A DNA stretch of 60,305 nucleotides from Alphaproteobacteria bacterium. Its GTDB lineage: Bacteria; Pseudomonadota; Alphaproteobacteria; ATCC43930; CGMCC-115725. Below are positions 37,462-45,195 of the stretch, in pieces. A program made the translations under genes and the position numbers. The notes beneath the pieces were generated by a model. It searched no databases and was not told the origin of the DNA. It was given only the letters and a program-made list of their open reading frames with translations. Location of the stretch: the NCBI GenBank assembly GCA_021325525.1, contig JAJPHB010000004.1, positions 1-60,305 of the forward strand. The letters are read 5' to 3'. The first letter of the stretch is position 1. The number at the start of each line of letters is the position of its first letter.

Positions 37462-39213
37462 CTAGGCGACGCGATCGCCCTTCCTGATCTCCGCCGTGCG
37501 GCTGTCGATGCCGGGCAGCATCTTGCCGGGATCGCGCGTCACGACGACGTCGAGCACCGTCGGGCGCTGGCGCTCGGCGAGCCCGGTCCGCAGAGCCGCG
37601 CCGAGATGAGCCGGGTCCTCGATACGGATGCCTCGGCACCCCATCGCCTCGGCGATCGCCGCGTAGTTCATCTCGACGAGGTCGCTCGATTGGTAGCGGC
37701 GGCCGAACATCGCATGCTGCAGCGCCTTCACGTAGCCCGAGGCGGCGTTGTTGACGACGATGACGGTAAGGCCGATGCCGGCGCGCCGCGCCGTCTCGAT
37801 CTCGCCCAGCACCATGTTGAAGCCGCCATCGCCGGTGATTGCGGCGACCGGCTGCTCCGGCGCGGCGAGGGCGGCGCCCATGCCGCCCGGCAGGCCATAG
37901 CCGATCGAGGCGAGGCCGCGATCGGCGATGTAGCGCCGCCCCGCCGATTTGGTGTCGTAAAGGAGCCCCGTCCAATGCGCGGCGAAGCCGCCATCGGCGA
38001 CGAGGACGCTCTCGGCCGGCATGGCCGCATTCAGCTCGTGGCAGAGCCGCGCCATGTTGATGGGGCGCTCGTCGGAGAGCAGGCGAGGCGCCGCCTCCTC
38101 GCGCCAGCGTGAAAGGCGCTGCGGCAGCTCGGCGAGGTAGTCGCGGCGCGCTGCCGCGATCCGCGGCGCATCGTCGCGCAACGCTTCGAGGAGATCGGCG
38201 AGCCCCTCCCGCGCATCGCCCCAGAGCGCGACCTCCGGCGCGCGGCAGCGGCCGATCTCCTCGGCGAGGATGTCGAGATGGATGATAGGGATGCCCGGCG
38301 GCGGCAGCACGTAGCGCTTCGTCGCGATCTCGCCGAGCTTGCAGCCGACGACGAGAAGGCAGTCGGAGGCGGCGATGAGGTCGTTGGCGATGCGCGAGTA
38401 GCGGCCGAAGAGCCCGGCCGAGAGCGGATGGGTGCAGGCGATGCCGCCCTTGCCGCTCATCGTATGTGCGACCGGGATCGCCAGCGCCTCGGCGAGCCGC
38501 AAGAGCGCTTCCTGCCCCGCCGAGAGATGAATGCCGCCGCCGACGAGGATGAGCGGGCGTTTCGCCGTGGCGAGCATGCGGCCGGCGCGCTCGATGTCGG
38601 CGCCGGCGGGCCGCATGCGCCGCGCCGGCGCGGCGAGGGTCGCTGGGTCGATCGCGAACTCCTCGGCGGCGAAATCATGCTCGCCGTGACAGACATCCTC
38701 CGGCACGTCGATGAGGACGGGGCCGGGCCGGCCCGAGGTCGCGACGGCGAAGGCGCGACGCAGGAGTTCCGGGATGCGGCTCGTCGCTTCGACGCGGATC
38801 AGCTCCTTGACGGCAGGGCGCAGAATCTCGGTCTGCCGGCATTCCTGCGTCATGTTCTTCCAGGAATGCGCCCGGTGCGTGTCGCCGGCAAGGGCGACGA
38901 GCGGCACGCCCGCATTGAGGCTCTCGACCAGCGCCGTCACGAGATTGGTCGCGCCCGGGCCCAGCGTGCCGTCGCAGACGCCCGGGCGGTTCGTCACCCG
39001 CGCATAGGCATCGGCGGCGAAGGCGCCGCAGCGCTCGTCATTGATGAGGAAGTGGCGGAGGCCGAGCTGGTTCAGCGCGTCATAGAAGGGGAGGAGCTGG
39101 AAGCCGCCCATGCCGAACATCGGTCCGATCTGGGCGAGGCGCAGCATTTCGGCGAGCGCTCGCCCGCCGGTCATGCGGCCTTGCGGATGGTTCATGCGCG
39201 GCGGAACGGTCAT
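37462..39213 (-). CDS. ThDP-dependent acetolactate-synthase-like enzyme
   Basis: 583 residues. The catalytic Glu60 lies in INDERCGAFAADAYAR. The ThDP-binding motif starts with GDGG at 461 and ends with Asn-Asn at 488-489. Central domain landmarks are GPVLIDVPEDV and MSGKGGI. These place it in the POX/AHAS superfamily, which includes acetolactate synthase, benzoylformate decarboxylase, oxalyl-CoA decarboxylase and sulfoacetaldehyde acetyltransferase. There is no regulatory subunit gene next to it, so a catabolic role is more likely than branched-chain synthesis. It diverges from the DctP gene across 129 bases. Confidence 0.87.
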   Translation of the reverse strand: MTVPPRMNHPQGRMTGGRALAEMLRLAQIGPMFGMGGFQLLPFYDALNQLGLRHFLINDERCGAFAADAYARVTNRPGVCDGTLGPGATNLVTALVESLNAGVPLVALAGDTHRAHSWKNMTQECRQTEILRPAVKELIRVEATSRIPELLRRAFAVATSGRPGPVLIDVPEDVCHGEHDFAAEEFAIDPATLAAPARRMRPAGADIERAGRMLATAKRPLILVGGGIHLSAGQEALLRLAEALAIPVAHTMSGKGGIACTHPLSAGLFGRYSRIANDLIAASDCLLVVGCKLGEIATKRYVLPPPGIPIIHLDILAEEIGRCRAPEVALWGDAREGLADLLEALRDDAPRIAAARRDYLAELPQRLSRWREEAAPRLLSDERPINMARLCHELNAAMPAESVLVADGGFAAHWTGLLYDTKSAGRRYIADRGLASIGYGLPGGMGAALAAPEQPVAAITGDGGFNMVLGEIETARRAGIGLTVIVVNNAASGYVKALQHAMFGRRYQSSDLVEMNYAAIAEAMGCRGIRIEDPAHLGAALRTGLAERQRPTVLDVVVTRDPGKMLPGIDSRTAEIRKGDRVA

Positions 39214-39342: not shown

Positions 39343-40365
39343 ATGAAGAGGGTCTCGCGCCGCGCCTTCGTTGGCGCCTCGGTCGCCGCCGCCGGCGTCG
39401 TCGCTACCGCCGGAATCCTGCCGCGCCGGGCGAGCGCCGCGGAATTCTCCTACAAATTCGCCAACAACGTGCCGGTGACGCATCCGACCAACATCGTCGC
39501 CAACAAGATGGTGCAGCGGATCAAGGAGGAATCGAAGGGCCGGCTCGAGATCCAGATCTTCCCCAACAACCAGCTCGGCGGCGACACCGATATGCTCTCG
39601 CAGCTCCGCTCGGGGGCGATCGAGTTCTTCACGCTGTCGGGCCTCATCCTGGCGACGCTGGTGCCGGCCGCCTCGATCAACGGCATCGGCTTCGCCTGGA
39701 AGGATTACGACGCGGTCTGGCCGGCGATGGATGGCGAGCTCGGCGCGTATCTCCGCGCCCAGATCGCCAAGGCCGGGCTCGTCGCCATGGACAAGATGTG
39801 GGACAACGGCTACCGCGAGATCACGTCGAGCACGAAGCCGATCAACACCGCCGCGGATTTGAAGGGCTTCAAGATCCGCGTGCCCGTGAGTCCGCTCTGG
39901 ACCTCGATGTTCGAGGCCTTCGGCGCCTCGCCGGCCAGCATCAATTTCAACGAGGTCTATTCGGCGCTGCAGACCAAGGTCGTCGAGGGGCAGGAGAACC
40001 CGCTCTCGATCATCGAGATCGGCAAGCTCTACGAGGTGCAGAAATACTGCTCGCTGACGAATCACATGTGGGACGGCTTCTGGTTCCTCGCCAACGGCCA
40101 GGCATGGAACGCGCTGCCCAAGGACCTCCAGGAGATCGCGGCGCGCAACTTCAACGCCGCCGCCCTCGAGCAGCGCCAGCAGATCCGGCAGCTCAACGAC
40201 TCGCTGCAAGGCAAGCTGCAGGCGAGCGGGATGGTCTTCAACAAGCCCGATCCGCAATCCTTCCGCGCTGCCCTGCAGAAGGCGAAATTCTACGAAAACT
40301 GGAAGGCGAAATACGGGAACGAGGCCTGGGCGCTCCTCGAGAAATATACCGGCAAGCTCGCCTGA
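39343..40365 (+). CDS. TRAP transporter solute-binding protein, DctP type
   Basis: 340 residues from the ATG at 39343. A Tat signal (KRVSRRAFVGASVAAAGVV) is followed by the DctP fold: NVPVTHPTNIVANKMVQRI, LEIQIFPNNQLGGDTDMLSQLRSGAIEFF, DLKGFKIRVPVSPLW and NEVYSALQTKVVEGQENPL with the carboxylate-binding Arg. It captures an organic acid in the periplasm for the fused permease 147 bases downstream. The ligand is not predictable, but the neighbouring ThDP enzymes suggest a 2-oxo or related carboxylic acid. Confidence 0.93.
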   Translation: MKRVSRRAFVGASVAAAGVVATAGILPRRASAAEFSYKFANNVPVTHPTNIVANKMVQRIKEESKGRLEIQIFPNNQLGGDTDMLSQLRSGAIEFFTLSGLILATLVPAASINGIGFAWKDYDAVWPAMDGELGAYLRAQIAKAGLVAMDKMWDNGYREITSSTKPINTAADLKGFKIRVPVSPLWTSMFEAFGASPASINFNEVYSALQTKVVEGQENPLSIIEIGKLYEVQKYCSLTNHMWDGFWFLANGQAWNALPKDLQEIAARNFNAAALEQRQQIRQLNDSLQGKLQASGMVFNKPDPQSFRAALQKAKFYENWKAKYGNEAWALLEKYTGKLA

Positions 40366-40512: not shown

Positions 40513-42396
40513 ATGAGCCGCCCGGAAGCCGCCGGCACGGAGTTCATCGGCGGGAGCCGCGCCGCCGTGCCCGGCCTCCGCTTTGCCCGCCTCGATGCGG
40601 TGATCGCCTGGGCGACCGAGGTGCCGGCTGCGGTACTCGTTGCCGTCGAAATCCTGGTGCTGCTCGCCGGCGTTGTCTCGCGCTACGTATTTCAGAATCC
40701 GCTGGTCTGGACGGATGAGCTCGCCTCCGCGCTCTTCCTTTGGCTCGCCATGCTGGGCGCCGTCATCGCCTTGCGCCGCGACGAGCATATGCGCCTTACC
40801 GCACTTTTGAACCGCGCGCCGGCGCGCTGGCGGAGCTGGCTCGAAGCGGTGGGGGCGATGGTCGTCGCCGCGTTCGTGCTGCTGATCCTCGCGCCGGCGC
40901 AGAGCTACATCGAGAGCGAGTGGGCAATCATCACCCCGGCCCTCTCCTTCCACAACAGCTTCCGCGTCGCGGCGATCGGCGTCGGCGCCGTGCTCATGAT
41001 CGTCATCGCCGGGGCGCGCCTCATCGAGCGCGTGCGGCCGCGCGATGCTGCGAGCGCCATCGCCGCGGTCGCCGCGATCGCCCTCGCCCTCTGGCTGCTG
41101 CGGCCGGTCCTGCTCGGCCTCGGTCAGGCCAATCTCCTCGTCTTCTTCGTCGGGCTCGTCGCCCTCTGCGTCGCGATCGGCGTACCGATCGCCTTCGCCT
41201 TCGGCGTCGCGACCGTCGCCTATCTCGCGCTCACGACGCATGTGCCCCTCACCGTGCTCATCGGGCGGATGGACGAGGGCATGTCGCATCTCATCCTCCT
41301 TGCCGTGCCGCTCTTCGTCTTTCTCGGCGGCCTCATCGAGGCGACGGGCCTCGCCCGCGCCATGGTCGATTTCCTGGCGGCGCTGCTGGGGCATGTCCGG
41401 GGCGGCCTCGCCTATGTGCTGCTCGGGGCCATGTACCTCGTCTCCGGCATCTCGGGATCGAAGGCTGCCGACATGGCGGCGATCGCGCCGGTGCTCTTCC
41501 CCGAGATGCGCCGCCGCGGCGCGCGCGGCGACGAGCTCATCGCGCTCCTTGCCTCCTCCGGCGCCATGTCGGAGACGATTCCGCCAAGCCTCGTCCTCAT
41601 CACCATCGGCTCGGTGACCGGCGTCTCGATCGCCGCCCTCTTCACCGGCGGGCTGCTCCCGGCGCTCGTCATGGCGCTGGCGCTCTGCGTCATCGCGAGG
41701 CTGCGGGCGCGGCGCGAGGATCTCTCGGCGGCGCGGCGTGCGTCCCTCGGCCGCATCGCCAAGACCTTCGCCATCGCCCTGCCGGCGCTCATCCTGCCCT
41801 TCGTCATCCGCACTGCCGTCGTCGAGGGCATCGCGACGGCGACGGAAGTGTCGACGATCGGCATCGTCTATACCCTCGTTGCCGGCTTCGCCATCTATCG
41901 CTGGTTCGATCTGCGCCGGCTCTATCCCATGCTGGTCGAGACGGCGGCGCTCTCGGGCGCCATCCTCTTCATCATCGGCACGGCGACGGGCATGGCCTGG
42001 GCGCTCACCCAATCGGGCTTCTCGCATCGCCTCGCGACGATCATGGCGACCATGCCGGGCGGGCAGGCGGCCTTCCTCGCCGTCTCGATCGCCGCCTTCG
42101 TTGTCCTCGGCAGCGTGCTCGAAGGCATTCCGGCGATCGTGCTTTTCGGCCCTCTTCTCTTTCCGATTGCCCGCACCATCGGCATCCATGAGGTGCACTA
42201 CGCGATGGTGGTCATCCTCGCCATGGGGATCGGCCTCTTCGCGCCGCCTTTCGGCGTCGGCTTCTACGCCGCCTGCGCCATCGGCCGCGTCAATGCCGAC
42301 GAGGCGATGAACGCGATCTGGCCCTATCTGGCGGCGCTCCTCATCGGCCTCGTGCTGGTGGCGGCGGTGCCGTGGCTTTCGATCGGCTTCCTGTGA
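40513..42396 (+). CDS. Fused TRAP transporter permease (DctQ-DctM)
   Basis: 627 residues. About 170 N-terminal residues form the four-helix DctQ part (VSRYVFQNPLVWTDELASALFLWLAMLGAVIAL). A linker helix pair then leads into a twelve-helix DctM with VGVPIAFAFG-like entry, GGLIEATGLARAMVDFLAALLGHVRGG, SGISGSKAADMAAIAPVLFPEM and FAPPFGVGFY. Fused Q-M permeases drive uptake with a sodium gradient. It lies downstream of the DctP gene, with the REP-like hairpin between, and ends 8 bases from the convergent GSHGG gene. Confidence 0.93.
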   Translation: MSRPEAAGTEFIGGSRAAVPGLRFARLDAVIAWATEVPAAVLVAVEILVLLAGVVSRYVFQNPLVWTDELASALFLWLAMLGAVIALRRDEHMRLTALLNRAPARWRSWLEAVGAMVVAAFVLLILAPAQSYIESEWAIITPALSFHNSFRVAAIGVGAVLMIVIAGARLIERVRPRDAASAIAAVAAIALALWLLRPVLLGLGQANLLVFFVGLVALCVAIGVPIAFAFGVATVAYLALTTHVPLTVLIGRMDEGMSHLILLAVPLFVFLGGLIEATGLARAMVDFLAALLGHVRGGLAYVLLGAMYLVSGISGSKAADMAAIAPVLFPEMRRRGARGDELIALLASSGAMSETIPPSLVLITIGSVTGVSIAALFTGGLLPALVMALALCVIARLRARREDLSAARRASLGRIAKTFAIALPALILPFVIRTAVVEGIATATEVSTIGIVYTLVAGFAIYRWFDLRRLYPMLVETAALSGAILFIIGTATGMAWALTQSGFSHRLATIMATMPGGQAAFLAVSIAAFVVLGSVLEGIPAIVLFGPLLFPIARTIGIHEVHYAMVVILAMGIGLFAPPFGVGFYAACAIGRVNADEAMNAIWPYLAALLIGLVLVAAVPWLSIGFL

Positions 42397-42404
42397 TCGC
42401 GCGC

Positions 42405-43217
42405 TCAGCGGCGGCGCCGACAGGCGAGGCGGGCGAAGTCGGGGACGCTCATGCCGACAGCCGCGCCCCATGCGCGCGCCGTCGCATTGACGGCGGAGAG
42501 CCGCCCCGTCTCCCAGCTCGACCGCGCCTCGCCGATGCGGGCCGAGGCCGCGGCGACCGTGGCGCCGGCGATGCCGCGCGCATCGAGCGCCGGCAGCCGC
42601 GACATTCCGGCCTCGTCGATGCCGATGCCGGCATCGTTATAGACCGCGGCCAGCGCCGCGACGCGGATCGCCGTCTCCGGCCGGCCGCCGAGGAGTCCGC
42701 CATGCGAGCCAGTGATGATGACGGCGCCCGCATCCTCGGGGCGTACCAGCGCGTTCGAATCGAGCCCCCAGACGGGCGGCTCGCCCGCCTCGTGGCGCAA
42801 GAGGATGCGCGCCTCTTCATAAGGCGGCGGCGCCGTTGCCGCGAGCGGGGCTTCACGCAGGCGCTCGCCCGCCTCGGCGCAGCGCATAGCGGGAGCGCAG
42901 CCGAGGCGATGCGCCGCCTCGTTGACCCGGCTCAACCGGCCGCGCGCCATCATGTCTCGGCCATCGCCGATCCGTGCCGTCAGATGCCCGACCGTCGCGG
43001 CGGCAATGCCGAGCCCGTCGAGATAGGCAAGCCCGGCGATGCCGGCTTGCCCGAGGCCGATGCCCGCATCGTTGAGGACGACTCCGCGCAGCCCTGCCGC
43101 CGCTGCGAGATAGGCGGCGTAGACGCCGCCATGCGAGCCCGCGACCAGCACGGCGCCGCGCGCCTCCGGCCCGAGCTTGGTGACGCTGTCGGCGACGAGG
43201 AGCGGAGCAGGGGTCAT
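42405..43217 (-). CDS. Unrecognised internally duplicated GSHGG protein
   Basis: 270 residues built of two homologous halves. The first half has GSHGG at 27-31, NDAGIG at 49-54, ATV at 74-76, ARIGD at 81-85 and G-x-L-S-x-V-N at 93-99. The second repeats GSHGG at 170-174, NDAGIG at 194-199, ATV at 219-221, ARIGE at 226-230 and GRLSAVN at 238-244, with almost identical spacing. Each half looks alpha/beta. Four cysteines occur but none is in the repeated motifs; no signal peptide or TM segment is seen. It lies between a TRAP permease (convergent) and an E1 dehydrogenase (divergent). I cannot assign a function; a role in handling the imported acid is inference. Confidence 0.75.
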   Translation of the reverse strand: MTPAPLLVADSVTKLGPEARGAVLVAGSHGGVYAAYLAAAAGLRGVVLNDAGIGLGQAGIAGLAYLDGLGIAAATVGHLTARIGDGRDMMARGRLSRVNEAAHRLGCAPAMRCAEAGERLREAPLAATAPPPYEEARILLRHEAGEPPVWGLDSNALVRPEDAGAVIITGSHGGLLGGRPETAIRVAALAAVYNDAGIGIDEAGMSRLPALDARGIAGATVAAASARIGEARSSWETGRLSAVNATARAWGAAVGMSVPDFARLACRRRR

Positions 43218-43261
43218 GTGTCGGCCTGCAATTTCGCCAGAGCGAGAGGGCGCCTCCTATC

Positions 43262-44242
43262 GTGACCAGAGCCAATATCGATGTCGAGCGCCTGCGCGAG
43301 CATTTCCGCACCATGGCCCGCATCCGCGCCTTCGAGGAGGCGGCGGAAGCGGGGCAGAAATCGGGCGAGATCCGGGGCGCGGTCCACCTGTCGGTTGGCC
43401 AGGAGGCGGTGGCGTCCGGGATCTGTGCCAATCTTCGCCGCAGCGACTATCTCGTCTCTACCCACCGCGTCCACGGCCACACCATCGCCAAGGGCGCCGA
43501 CGTCACGGCGATGATGGCCGAGCTTCTCGGCAAGGCGGGCGGCACCTGCCAGGGCAAGGGCGGCTCGATGCACATCGCCGATTTCTCGATCGGCATGCTC
43601 GGCGCCAATGGCGTCGTGGGCGCGGGCATTCCGATCGCGGCGGGGGCCGCGCATGCGGTGAAGCTGCGCGGCGGCAGCGAGATCGTCGCCTGCTTCTTCG
43701 GCGACGGCGCGGTCAATCGCGGCCCCTTTCTCGAAGGGCTCAACTGGGCCCGCATCTACGATTTGCCGATACTCTTCATCTGCGAGGACAACGGCTTTGC
43801 CGCGACGACGCGGACGCGGAGCTTGACCGGGGGGCCGGGACCGGCGGCGCGGGCCGAAGCGCTCGGCATTCCCGCCCGCATCGTCGACGGCAATGCCGTC
43901 GAGGAGGTGGACGCGGCGGCGGCCGAGCGCGTCACCCGCATCCGTGAGGGCGGCGGGCCGCAGTTCATCCTGGCGCAGACCTACCGCCTCAAGGGTCACA
44001 CTGCGCACGATCCCGCGACCTACCGCCCGGCGGCGGAGGTCGAGGAGAAGCAGCGGCGCGACCCCATCGAGCTCTGCCGCGAGACCCTGCTTCTGCGCGG
44101 CGTTCCTGCCGCGGCTCTGGCAGCGGACGAGGCGGCGGCCCGGGTGGAGATCGCCGCTGCGGTCGCGGCGGCGCGGGCGCAGCCCTGGGGTGATGAAAGC
44201 CTCGCCTGGCGCGACGTCCAGGATATGGGGGCGCCGGCATGA
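43262..44242 (+). CDS. 2-Oxoacid or acetoin dehydrogenase E1, alpha subunit
   Basis: 326 residues from a GTG at 43262. Motifs are SVGQEAVASG, STHRVHGH, GKGGSMHIAD, the ThDP motif GDGAVNRGPFLEGLN at 147 with Asn177, and the loop YRLKGHTAHDPATYR. With the beta subunit it forms the ThDP-dependent E1 of an alpha2-beta2 complex that decarboxylates a 2-oxoacid or cleaves acetoin. The absence of E2 or E3 genes next door is notable. The stop overlaps the beta-subunit ATG as ATGA. The upstream 44 bases must hold signals for two divergent genes. Confidence 0.9.
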   Translation: MTRANIDVERLREHFRTMARIRAFEEAAEAGQKSGEIRGAVHLSVGQEAVASGICANLRRSDYLVSTHRVHGHTIAKGADVTAMMAELLGKAGGTCQGKGGSMHIADFSIGMLGANGVVGAGIPIAAGAAHAVKLRGGSEIVACFFGDGAVNRGPFLEGLNWARIYDLPILFICEDNGFAATTRTRSLTGGPGPAARAEALGIPARIVDGNAVEEVDAAAAERVTRIREGGGPQFILAQTYRLKGHTAHDPATYRPAAEVEEKQRRDPIELCRETLLLRGVPAAALAADEAAARVEIAAAVAAARAQPWGDESLAWRDVQDMGAPA

Positions 44243-45195
44243 CCCTCATGAGCTATCTCGAAGCCGGCAAGCGTGCGCTCGCCGAGGAGATGCGGCGCGA
44301 TCCCGCGGTCTGGGCGCTCGGCGAAGATCTCGGGCGCGGCGGCGTCTTCGGCCAGTACAAGGGCCTCGCCGAGGAATTCGGGCCGCAGCGCATCTGCGAC
44401 ACGCCGATCTCGGAAGCCTGCATCATGGGCGCGGCGGTCGGCGCGGCGCTGGTCGGGACGCGCCCCGTCGTCGAGATGCGCTTTTCCGATTTCGCGCTCT
44501 GCGCCATCGACGAGCTCGTCAACCAGGCGGCGAAGGCGCGCTACATGTTCGGCGGGCAGGGGCGGGTGCCGCTCGTCGTGCGCGAGCCCGTCGGCATGTG
44601 GCGCTCCTCGGCGGCGCAGCACAGCCAGAGCCTCGAAGCCTGGTACGCGCACATCCCGGGCCTCGTCGTCGTGACCCCGTCGACGCCGGCGGACAATTAC
44701 GGCCTGCTGAAGGCGGCGATCCGCTGCGACGACCCGGTCGTCTATATGGAGCACAAGGATCTCTGGCCGCTCGAAGGCGAGGTCGAAGCCGATGGCGAGG
44801 CGCTGCCGCTCGGCAAGGCCCGCATCTTGCGGCAGGGCGGCGATCTCACCATCGTCGCCTGGTCGGGGGTGCTGCGAACCGTGCGCCAGGCCGCGGAAGC
44901 GCTCGCGGGCACCGGCGTCGCCGCCGAAGTGATCGATCTGCGAACTCTCTATCCTTGGGACCGCGAAACCGTGCTCGCCTCGGCGGCGCGCACCCGGCGG
45001 CTCCTCGTCGTGCATGAGGCGGTCGCCATCGGCGGCTTCGGCGGCGAGATCGCGGCGACGGCCGCAGAGGAGCTCGGTGTCAGGGTGAAGCGTCTCGGCG
45101 CGCCGCGCCTGCCGGTCGCCTATGCGCCGCCCCTCGAAGCGCAGTGCCGCGTCTCCGAGGCGCAGATCGTCGCGGCGGCGCGCACCCTCCTGTGA
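44239..45195 (+). CDS. 2-Oxoacid or acetoin dehydrogenase E1, beta subunit
   Basis: 318 residues. The transketolase-like pyrimidine domain (SYLEAGKRALAEEMRRDPAVWALGED, RICDTPISEACIMGAAVGAALVG, EMRFSDFALCAIDELVNQAAK) is followed by the C-terminal transketolase domain (LTIVAWSGVLRTVRQAAEAL, VIDLRTLYPWD, HEAVAIGGFGGEIAA). The length matches PdhB/AcoB/BkdB proteins. It completes the E1 heterotetramer. A small ORF follows 12 bases later on the same strand. Confidence 0.9.
   Translation: MTLMSYLEAGKRALAEEMRRDPAVWALGEDLGRGGVFGQYKGLAEEFGPQRICDTPISEACIMGAAVGAALVGTRPVVEMRFSDFALCAIDELVNQAAKARYMFGGQGRVPLVVREPVGMWRSSAAQHSQSLEAWYAHIPGLVVVTPSTPADNYGLLKAAIRCDDPVVYMEHKDLWPLEGEVEADGEALPLGKARILRQGGDLTIVAWSGVLRTVRQAAEALAGTGVAAEVIDLRTLYPWDRETVLASAARTRRLLVVHEAVAIGGFGGEIAATAAEELGVRVKRLGAPRLPVAYAPPLEAQCRVSEAQIVAAARTLL

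Follow-up and report, generated by a model that had tools for sequence, protein, structure and literature searches.

The 270-amino acid protein described here is a true, old tandem duplication of one domain, and its gene is strongly linked to genes for thiamine diphosphate (ThDP) enzymes of oxo-acid metabolism. The gene lies in a 60,305-nucleotide stretch of alphaproteobacterial DNA, the whole of which is referred to as the window. The protein belongs to an unnamed family that occurs in about one-eighth of the sampled genomes of the class (48 of 385 in a protein search, its own genome included) and extends to haloarchaea and actinobacteria. Profile and structure comparisons indicate that it is probably a distant relative of DUF1805 (YunC/TA1206). 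More tentatively, and with somewhat less than even confidence, we propose that the two domains form a fused dimer that acts as a soluble catabolic enzyme on small oxo-hydroxy acids.

Two halves of one protein and their relatives

The gene is read from the minus strand. Both halves of its product carry the same five motifs, which are located as follows.

42405-43217, minus strand: gene of the duplicated protein (270 amino acids), an open frame with an ATG start
42843-43217, minus strand: domain 1 (residues 1-125), modelled alone with a pLDDT of 95
43125-43139, minus strand: GSHGG of half 1 (residues 27-31)
43056-43073, minus strand: NDAGIG of half 1 (residues 49-54)
42990-42998, minus strand: ATV of half 1 (residues 74-76)
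42963-42977, minus strand: ARIGD of half 1 (residues 81-85)
42921-42941, minus strand: GRLSRVN of half 1 (residues 93-99)
42792-42842, minus strand: linker (residues 126-142), in which E135 is invariant in a 38-row alignment
42408-42791, minus strand: domain 2 (residues 143-270)
42696-42710, minus strand: GSHGG of half 2 (residues 170-174)
42621-42638, minus strand: NDAGIG of half 2 (residues 194-199)
42555-42563, minus strand: ATV of half 2 (residues 219-221)
42528-42542, minus strand: ARIGE of half 2 (residues 226-230)
42486-42506, minus strand: GRLSAVN of half 2 (residues 238-244)

The motifs start at G27, N49, A74, A81, and G93 in half 1 (spacings 22/25/7/12) and at G170, N194, A219, A226, and G238 in half 2 (spacings 24/25/7/12), exactly the twofold order and the spacings that had been reported in an earlier note on the window. 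That note had also proposed an internal duplication, and our comparisons of the halves bear this out. The two halves share 42% identity when aligned, and their Smith-Waterman score of 193 was reached by none of 2000 shuffles of half 2 (38.5 ± 7.0, maximum 68). Profiles of the N- and C-terminal halves from 79 family members match one another with a probability of 100 (E ~1e-44). The corresponding alignment of 79 rows derives from 83 full-length frames: identical rows and L001, which duplicates the window, were taken out, and the window itself was retained. Within it, the serine pair S28/S171 is kept in 79 of 79 cases and the histidine pair H29/H172 in 78 of 78, followed by N99/N244 (78/79), D50/D195 (75/79), R82/R227 (72/74), and G84/G229 (72/79). 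Because the identity, the shuffle score, the profile match, and the retention of the motifs in both halves of nearly all members agree, we regard the duplication as true and old.

The 48 genomes of the class comprise 42 with the two-domain form, in which most of the protein length is conserved (own genome counted), 5 with a one-domain protein, and 1 with a weak, 73-residue match that contains a stop. A profile search across the phylum yielded matches in at least 6 of 398 genomes, two of which lie outside the class and encode a one-domain protein. Plasmid records contributed 11 matches from alphaproteobacteria, haloarchaea, and Rhodococcus; ten of these, which are all of the annotated ones, bear the label "hypothetical protein," and the eleventh record carries no annotation. 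A scan of genome contigs provided 39 loci.

Homologues with a single domain of ~130 amino acids exist. Seven one-domain matches (in genomes G200, G292, G295, G370, G373, G617, and G725) bear a recognizable version of the motif set in which small changes occur, for example SHAG in G295, NDADVG in G200, and SHGA in G292. Since the motif set is thus present, slightly altered, in proteins of one domain, the two-domain form has the appearance of a fused dimer, which lends indirect support to the pseudo-dimer suggested in the earlier note. The one-domain match in G292 (L072:1-2406, plus strand) is the end of an 802-residue open frame, the earlier part of which resembles another, membrane-type protein; this could be a fusion or a read-through, and the true start is uncertain. 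L073:4257-4631 (minus strand), close to a complete one-domain gene, encodes a fragment similar to the C-terminal portion of the domain and is possibly a decayed second copy.

Three genomes (G067, G281, and G195) encode, in addition to the main copy, a second, divergent two-domain paralogue (at L075, L076, and L077). A tree of 47 domains places the 17 main N-halves in one group (100/99) and the 17 main C-halves in another (98/93), with the seven single domains as a third (89/66). The domains of the divergent proteins of L075-L077 form a group of their own (98/92), outside the two main clades. This separate group hints at a second, independent fusion; a single origin fits the AU test, in which a clade of all N-halves was not rejected (p 0.276).

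Predicted fold and probable relation to DUF1805

AlphaFold2 predicted the structure of the whole protein from 38 sequences with a pLDDT of 96.2 and a pTM of 0.91, and that of half 1 alone from 76 sequences with values of 95.1 and 0.90. Secondary-structure elements of the model recur at an offset of ~143-146 residues. No Pfam or NCBIfam model scored above its cut-off on the window protein, PDB sequence searches returned no convincing match to a solved structure, and Foldseek searches of PDB and BFVD with the model gave nothing at E<0.001. A second look with VIA, limited to folds already found by Foldseek, placed 1qw2 (TA1206) at the top for half 1 with a Z score of 8.2, on a scale where models without a clear match usually reach a best Z of 7-8 (rmsd 2.4 Å over 75 of 102 residues; next Z 5.8). 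For the whole model, 1qw2 reached a Z of 7.7 and the next fold 5.5. SteA, CtBP, lactate dehydrogenases, and others, which appeared in VIA at Z 4-6, were set aside as common arrangements.

TA1206 leads to the DUF1805 family. A YunC query matches TA1206/1qw2 at 6e-6, and of the six plasmid matches to the same query, four are annotated as DUF1805. Among Pfam models, DUF1805 (PF08827) attracts the most aligned members: at E≤0.1, its profile finds 37 of the 38, with a lowest E of 2.4e-8, and in some relatives the match runs from profile positions 8-10 to 54-64 of 64, covering up to 55 of the 64 positions. When ten relatives were scanned singly, nine matched DUF1805 and only L034 passed the cut-off (32.0 versus 29.5 bits). 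The window protein itself scores 18.5 bits (E 0.0024), under the cut-off of 29.5. Alignment to five DUF1805 sequences with hhalign covers 27 columns only, at a probability of 33-45%. Because the window protein scores below the cut-off and one of ten relatives exceeds it, we describe the protein as a probable distant relative of DUF1805 rather than a filed member of the family. The earlier note had called the protein unrecognized and had placed it with no characterized enzyme. The second statement agrees with the Pfam, NCBIfam, PDB sequence, and Foldseek searches, none of which gave a confident match to such an enzyme; the first has to be qualified in view of the probable kinship with DUF1805.

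As judged from the profile matches, the DUF1805 link leans partly on a stretch that is also matched by another model, that of the IMS domain of Y-family DNA polymerases (PF00817). This model matches 32 of 38 members (best 3.3e-6) through the C-terminal stretch that also underlies the DUF1805 match. The window protein scores 16.6 bits against it over ~30 residues, with no full IMS domain above the cut-off. One relative, L051, exceeds the IMS cut-off (25.9 versus 23.2) through a short strand-helix stretch and is likely a false positive of the model. We rejected kinship with Y-family polymerases and read the short stretch as a common local motif.

Gene neighbourhood

The genes that surround the duplicated protein in the window are as follows.

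37462-39213, minus strand: acetolactate-synthase-like (ALS-like) ThDP enzyme, a conserved neighbour
39343-40365, plus strand: TRAP solute-binding protein, nearest to 4oan among solved structures (483 bits)
40513-42396, plus strand: fused TRAP permease DctQ-DctM
43218-43261, no strand: divergent gap of 44 bp, common to the duplicated-protein gene and E1 alpha
43262-44242, plus strand: E1 alpha (PF00676), a conserved neighbour
44239-45195, plus strand: E1 beta (Transket_pyr, Transketolase_C), a conserved neighbour

The gene thus has the location given in the earlier note, between a TRAP permease (end at 42396) and an E1 alpha gene (start at 43262), both on the plus strand. It is tail-to-tail with the permease and head-to-head with E1 alpha-E1 beta; lying on the opposite strand, it is therefore co-transcribed with neither. 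The ALS-like gene, whose closest solved relative is BbmA, is found 3.2 kb further on along the same strand as the duplicated-protein gene. With those of the window included, the 4.79-Mb genome contains 10 ALS-like and 2 E1 alpha genes. No E2 gene accompanies the E1 alpha/beta pair of the window (43262-45195): E2 (PF00198) is matched just twice in the genome, on contigs C47 and C50, and the only other E1 alpha gene is close to the match on C47.

We compared the neighbourhoods of 85 loci, the window and 84 others, no two of which share the last 150 residues of the protein. Frames were taken from stop to stop, and intergenic gaps are approximate. Several loci end at contig ends, which lowers the neighbour counts. 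Broken or cut copies (L068 and L069) were left out of both the alignments and this set; also outside the set are L097-L105 and L001-L030, which have short flanks, and 20 of the L001-L030 genomes came back with longer flanks. With the window included, an ALS-like gene is present in 43 of the 85 loci, E1 alpha in 38, and E1 beta in 41. Any one of the three occurs in 51 loci, and ALS together with E1 in 34. The TRAP permease, found in 21 loci, is more weakly linked than the ThDP enzymes, for which the linkage is strong. A survey of this kind had been suggested in the earlier note for TRAP and E1 genes, between which the location of the gene had been taken to point to metabolism of the imported acid. 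The catabolic setting is supported; the emphasis on import is less so, the E1 and ALS-like partners being commoner than the permease.

Nearly all of the ALS-like genes (41 of 43, the window's own counted; 40 of 84 loci without the window) score more than 600 bits against that of the window, compared with 243 bits for its best paralogue in the same genome. Because of this difference, they look like one dedicated subfamily on sequence grounds. Thirty of these 41 genes lie on the same strand as the duplicated-protein gene with frames no more than 300 bp apart. Of the 38 loci with E1 alpha, 33 have this gene on the opposite strand no more than 1.5 kb away; the order is mostly head-to-head, and tail-to-tail in L054, L081, L123, and L125.

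In 32 of the 85 loci, ALS, E1, and this TRAP permease are all absent. Among the 96 neighbours scanned of the 146 proteins listed for these loci, short-chain dehydrogenases (11) and ABC transporters (6) lead. The remainder include rhodanese, enoyl-CoA hydratase, acyl-CoA enzymes, GMC oxidoreductase, HpcH aldolase, and some apparently unrelated genes, as well as three indolepyruvate-oxidoreductase-like ThDP proteins; such proteins were seen in L078 and L080 when these loci were examined singly. The neighbours of these loci are mixed, and the partner chemistry is therefore not one reaction. Two neighbour genes in L116 (L116:11116-11676 and L116:11659-12345) have no Pfam match at all, and one of them recurs in L106, L111, L116, and L117.

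The haloarchaeal plasmid loci have a different arrangement. In all five, a RuBisCO-like gene (with just a partial annotation in one locus) and a four-carbon-acid (sugar-acid) kinase come after the gene. A short-chain dehydrogenase is near in all five, TRAP genes are present in four of the five stretches, and a VOC protein occurs in four, with an unnamed protein at the same place in the fifth. In the one locus that was scanned, the best models for the RuBisCO-like protein and the kinase were OiaX (500.7) and OiaK (420.4), both below the cut-off of 700.

Candidate functions and known systems

Because 2-oxo or 3-oxo acids are the substrates of many partner enzymes, the reading we prefer is that of an enzyme for the preparation or recycling of a small hydroxy-oxo acid. 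In the secondary structure of the model, Ser28-His29 and Asn49-Asp50 stand at the ends of strands 23-29 and 45-49, Arg82 and Asp85 lie in the loop after strand 72-76, and Asn99 follows strand 94-98; the same order recurs in half 2. In such a fold, the conserved Ser-His, Asn-Asp, Arg-Asp, and Asn residues could form one ligand site per half, where Arg would hold the carboxylate of the substrate and His and Asp would serve as acid-base or metal ligands. Two equivalent sites are a simpler reading than the shared active site thought probable in the earlier note, because each half bears the whole motif set. Since one-domain relatives exist, each half can be a functional unit, which makes a two-site fused dimer the simplest anatomy. 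The enzyme would supply the neighbouring ThDP enzymes with its hydroxy-oxo acid and, in haloarchaea, would play the same role for the RuBisCO-like/kinase pair. Its chemistry would most likely be isomerization, epimerization, or decarboxylation.

A more specific proposal is that the protein decarboxylates or isomerizes 2-hydroxy-2-alkyl-3-oxo acids, for instance acetolactate in the case of the window and an acid resembling 3-oxo-isoapionate in that of haloarchaea. Acetolactate and 3-oxo-isoapionate have a common skeleton. The TRAP binding protein of the window is much closer to 4oan than to any other solved structure (next 149 bits), and we take the ligand of 4oan to be (S)-2-acetolactate. In a review (PMC5812351), 2-acetolactate is named as one of the TRAP ligands that Vetting et al. 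(2015) identified. The ALS-like and E1 neighbours in the window would suit such a substrate if the E1 were acetoin-dehydrogenase-like, and in haloarchaea the similarity of the scanned neighbours to OiaX and OiaK points the same way. PGDH_C proteins lie nearby in two other haloarchaeal loci, and one of them marginally matches KARI_N (20.9 bits against a cut-off of 20.6). The known acetolactate decarboxylase family (PF03306) is missing from 40 of the 42 genomes with the two-domain protein, but it is not common in control genomes either (3 of 14). In haloarchaea, the OiaX model is itself named a decarboxylase. The distribution of the binding protein also argues against the proposal. The window type occurs in 3 of the 85 loci, the window among them. 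Conversely, we inspected 10 of the 12 other places that have a close relative of this binding protein; these comparison loci (9.7-15 kb), which also serve as a background for the ThDP linkage, contained no duplicated-protein gene, ALS-like gene, or E1 alpha, and two hold a weak E1 beta-like frame (43-48 bits). We rejected a general link to 4oan-type TRAP proteins on these counts. Because of the same counts, we consider this substrate class unlikely. We think it less likely still that a DUF1805-like duplicated protein, as a new enzyme fold in acetohydroxy-acid chemistry, carries out the novel reaction that could go with it, in which the acyl group of 2-hydroxy-2-alkyl-3-oxo acids is shifted, or the acids are decarboxylated, without NADPH. 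Such a reaction would convert acetolactate-type acids to compounds open to cleavage by E1, ALS-like, and indolepyruvate-type ThDP enzymes.

The protein may alternatively have a sensor or assembly role. A ligand-sensing or accessory protein that binds an intermediate and tunes the expression or activity of the divergent E1/ALS genes, with no catalysis of its own, would be consistent with its divergent position by the E1 genes in most loci having E1, the absence of a recognized catalytic signature in the protein, the lack of an assigned reaction for DUF1805, and the varied contexts of the gene. This role is doubtful, however, given the many conserved polar residues that the model places in strand-end loops of both halves. 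The protein has no Pfam DNA-binding domain, and IclR regulators are encoded by separate genes in six loci. Another possibility is a generic repair or side-reaction enzyme (a tautomerase, epimerase, or lactone hydrolase) that serves oxo-acid and acyl-CoA pathways with a substrate that varies by operon. It would explain contexts that range from ThDP enzymes to acyl-CoA breakdown in Rhodococcus and Rhizobium, the short-chain dehydrogenases (11 of 96 scanned neighbours), and a CoA-transferase in L140. We consider it unlikely, as roughly half of the loci have orthologous ALS/E1 partners, which suggests that the pathway is a defined one.

Tight linkage to a dedicated ALS-like/E1 pair narrows the candidate substrates to a short list, so that a single purified protein would suffice to test both its own reaction and that of a DUF1805-type fold. 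Should the acetohydroxy-acid reaction prove true, it would be the first for the DUF1805 fold and would account for a gene that keeps company with both ThDP enzymes and OiaX/OiaK-like genes. A search of open-licence PMC papers found no literature on the protein, its motifs, or the gene set.

Four known systems invite comparison. The likeness to the IMS domain of Y-family DNA polymerases is local, confined to one strand-helix stretch of ~30-50 residues. That to OiaX and OiaK of the 3-oxo-isoapionate pathway belongs to the haloarchaeal neighbours, at scores below the equivalog cut-offs, and not to the duplicated protein. Acetolactate decarboxylase and ketol-acid reductoisomerase might be functional analogues if the substrate were acetolactate-like; neither PF03306 nor a KARI model is among the Pfam matches listed for the window protein at E≤10. 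DUF1805, which to our knowledge has no known function and no assigned reaction, is the closest structural match to one domain of the window protein. It consists of one domain of ~100 amino acids, whereas the window protein comprises two of ~125 amino acids and has the GSHGG and NDAGIG motifs, which are absent from the five DUF1805 sequences compared.
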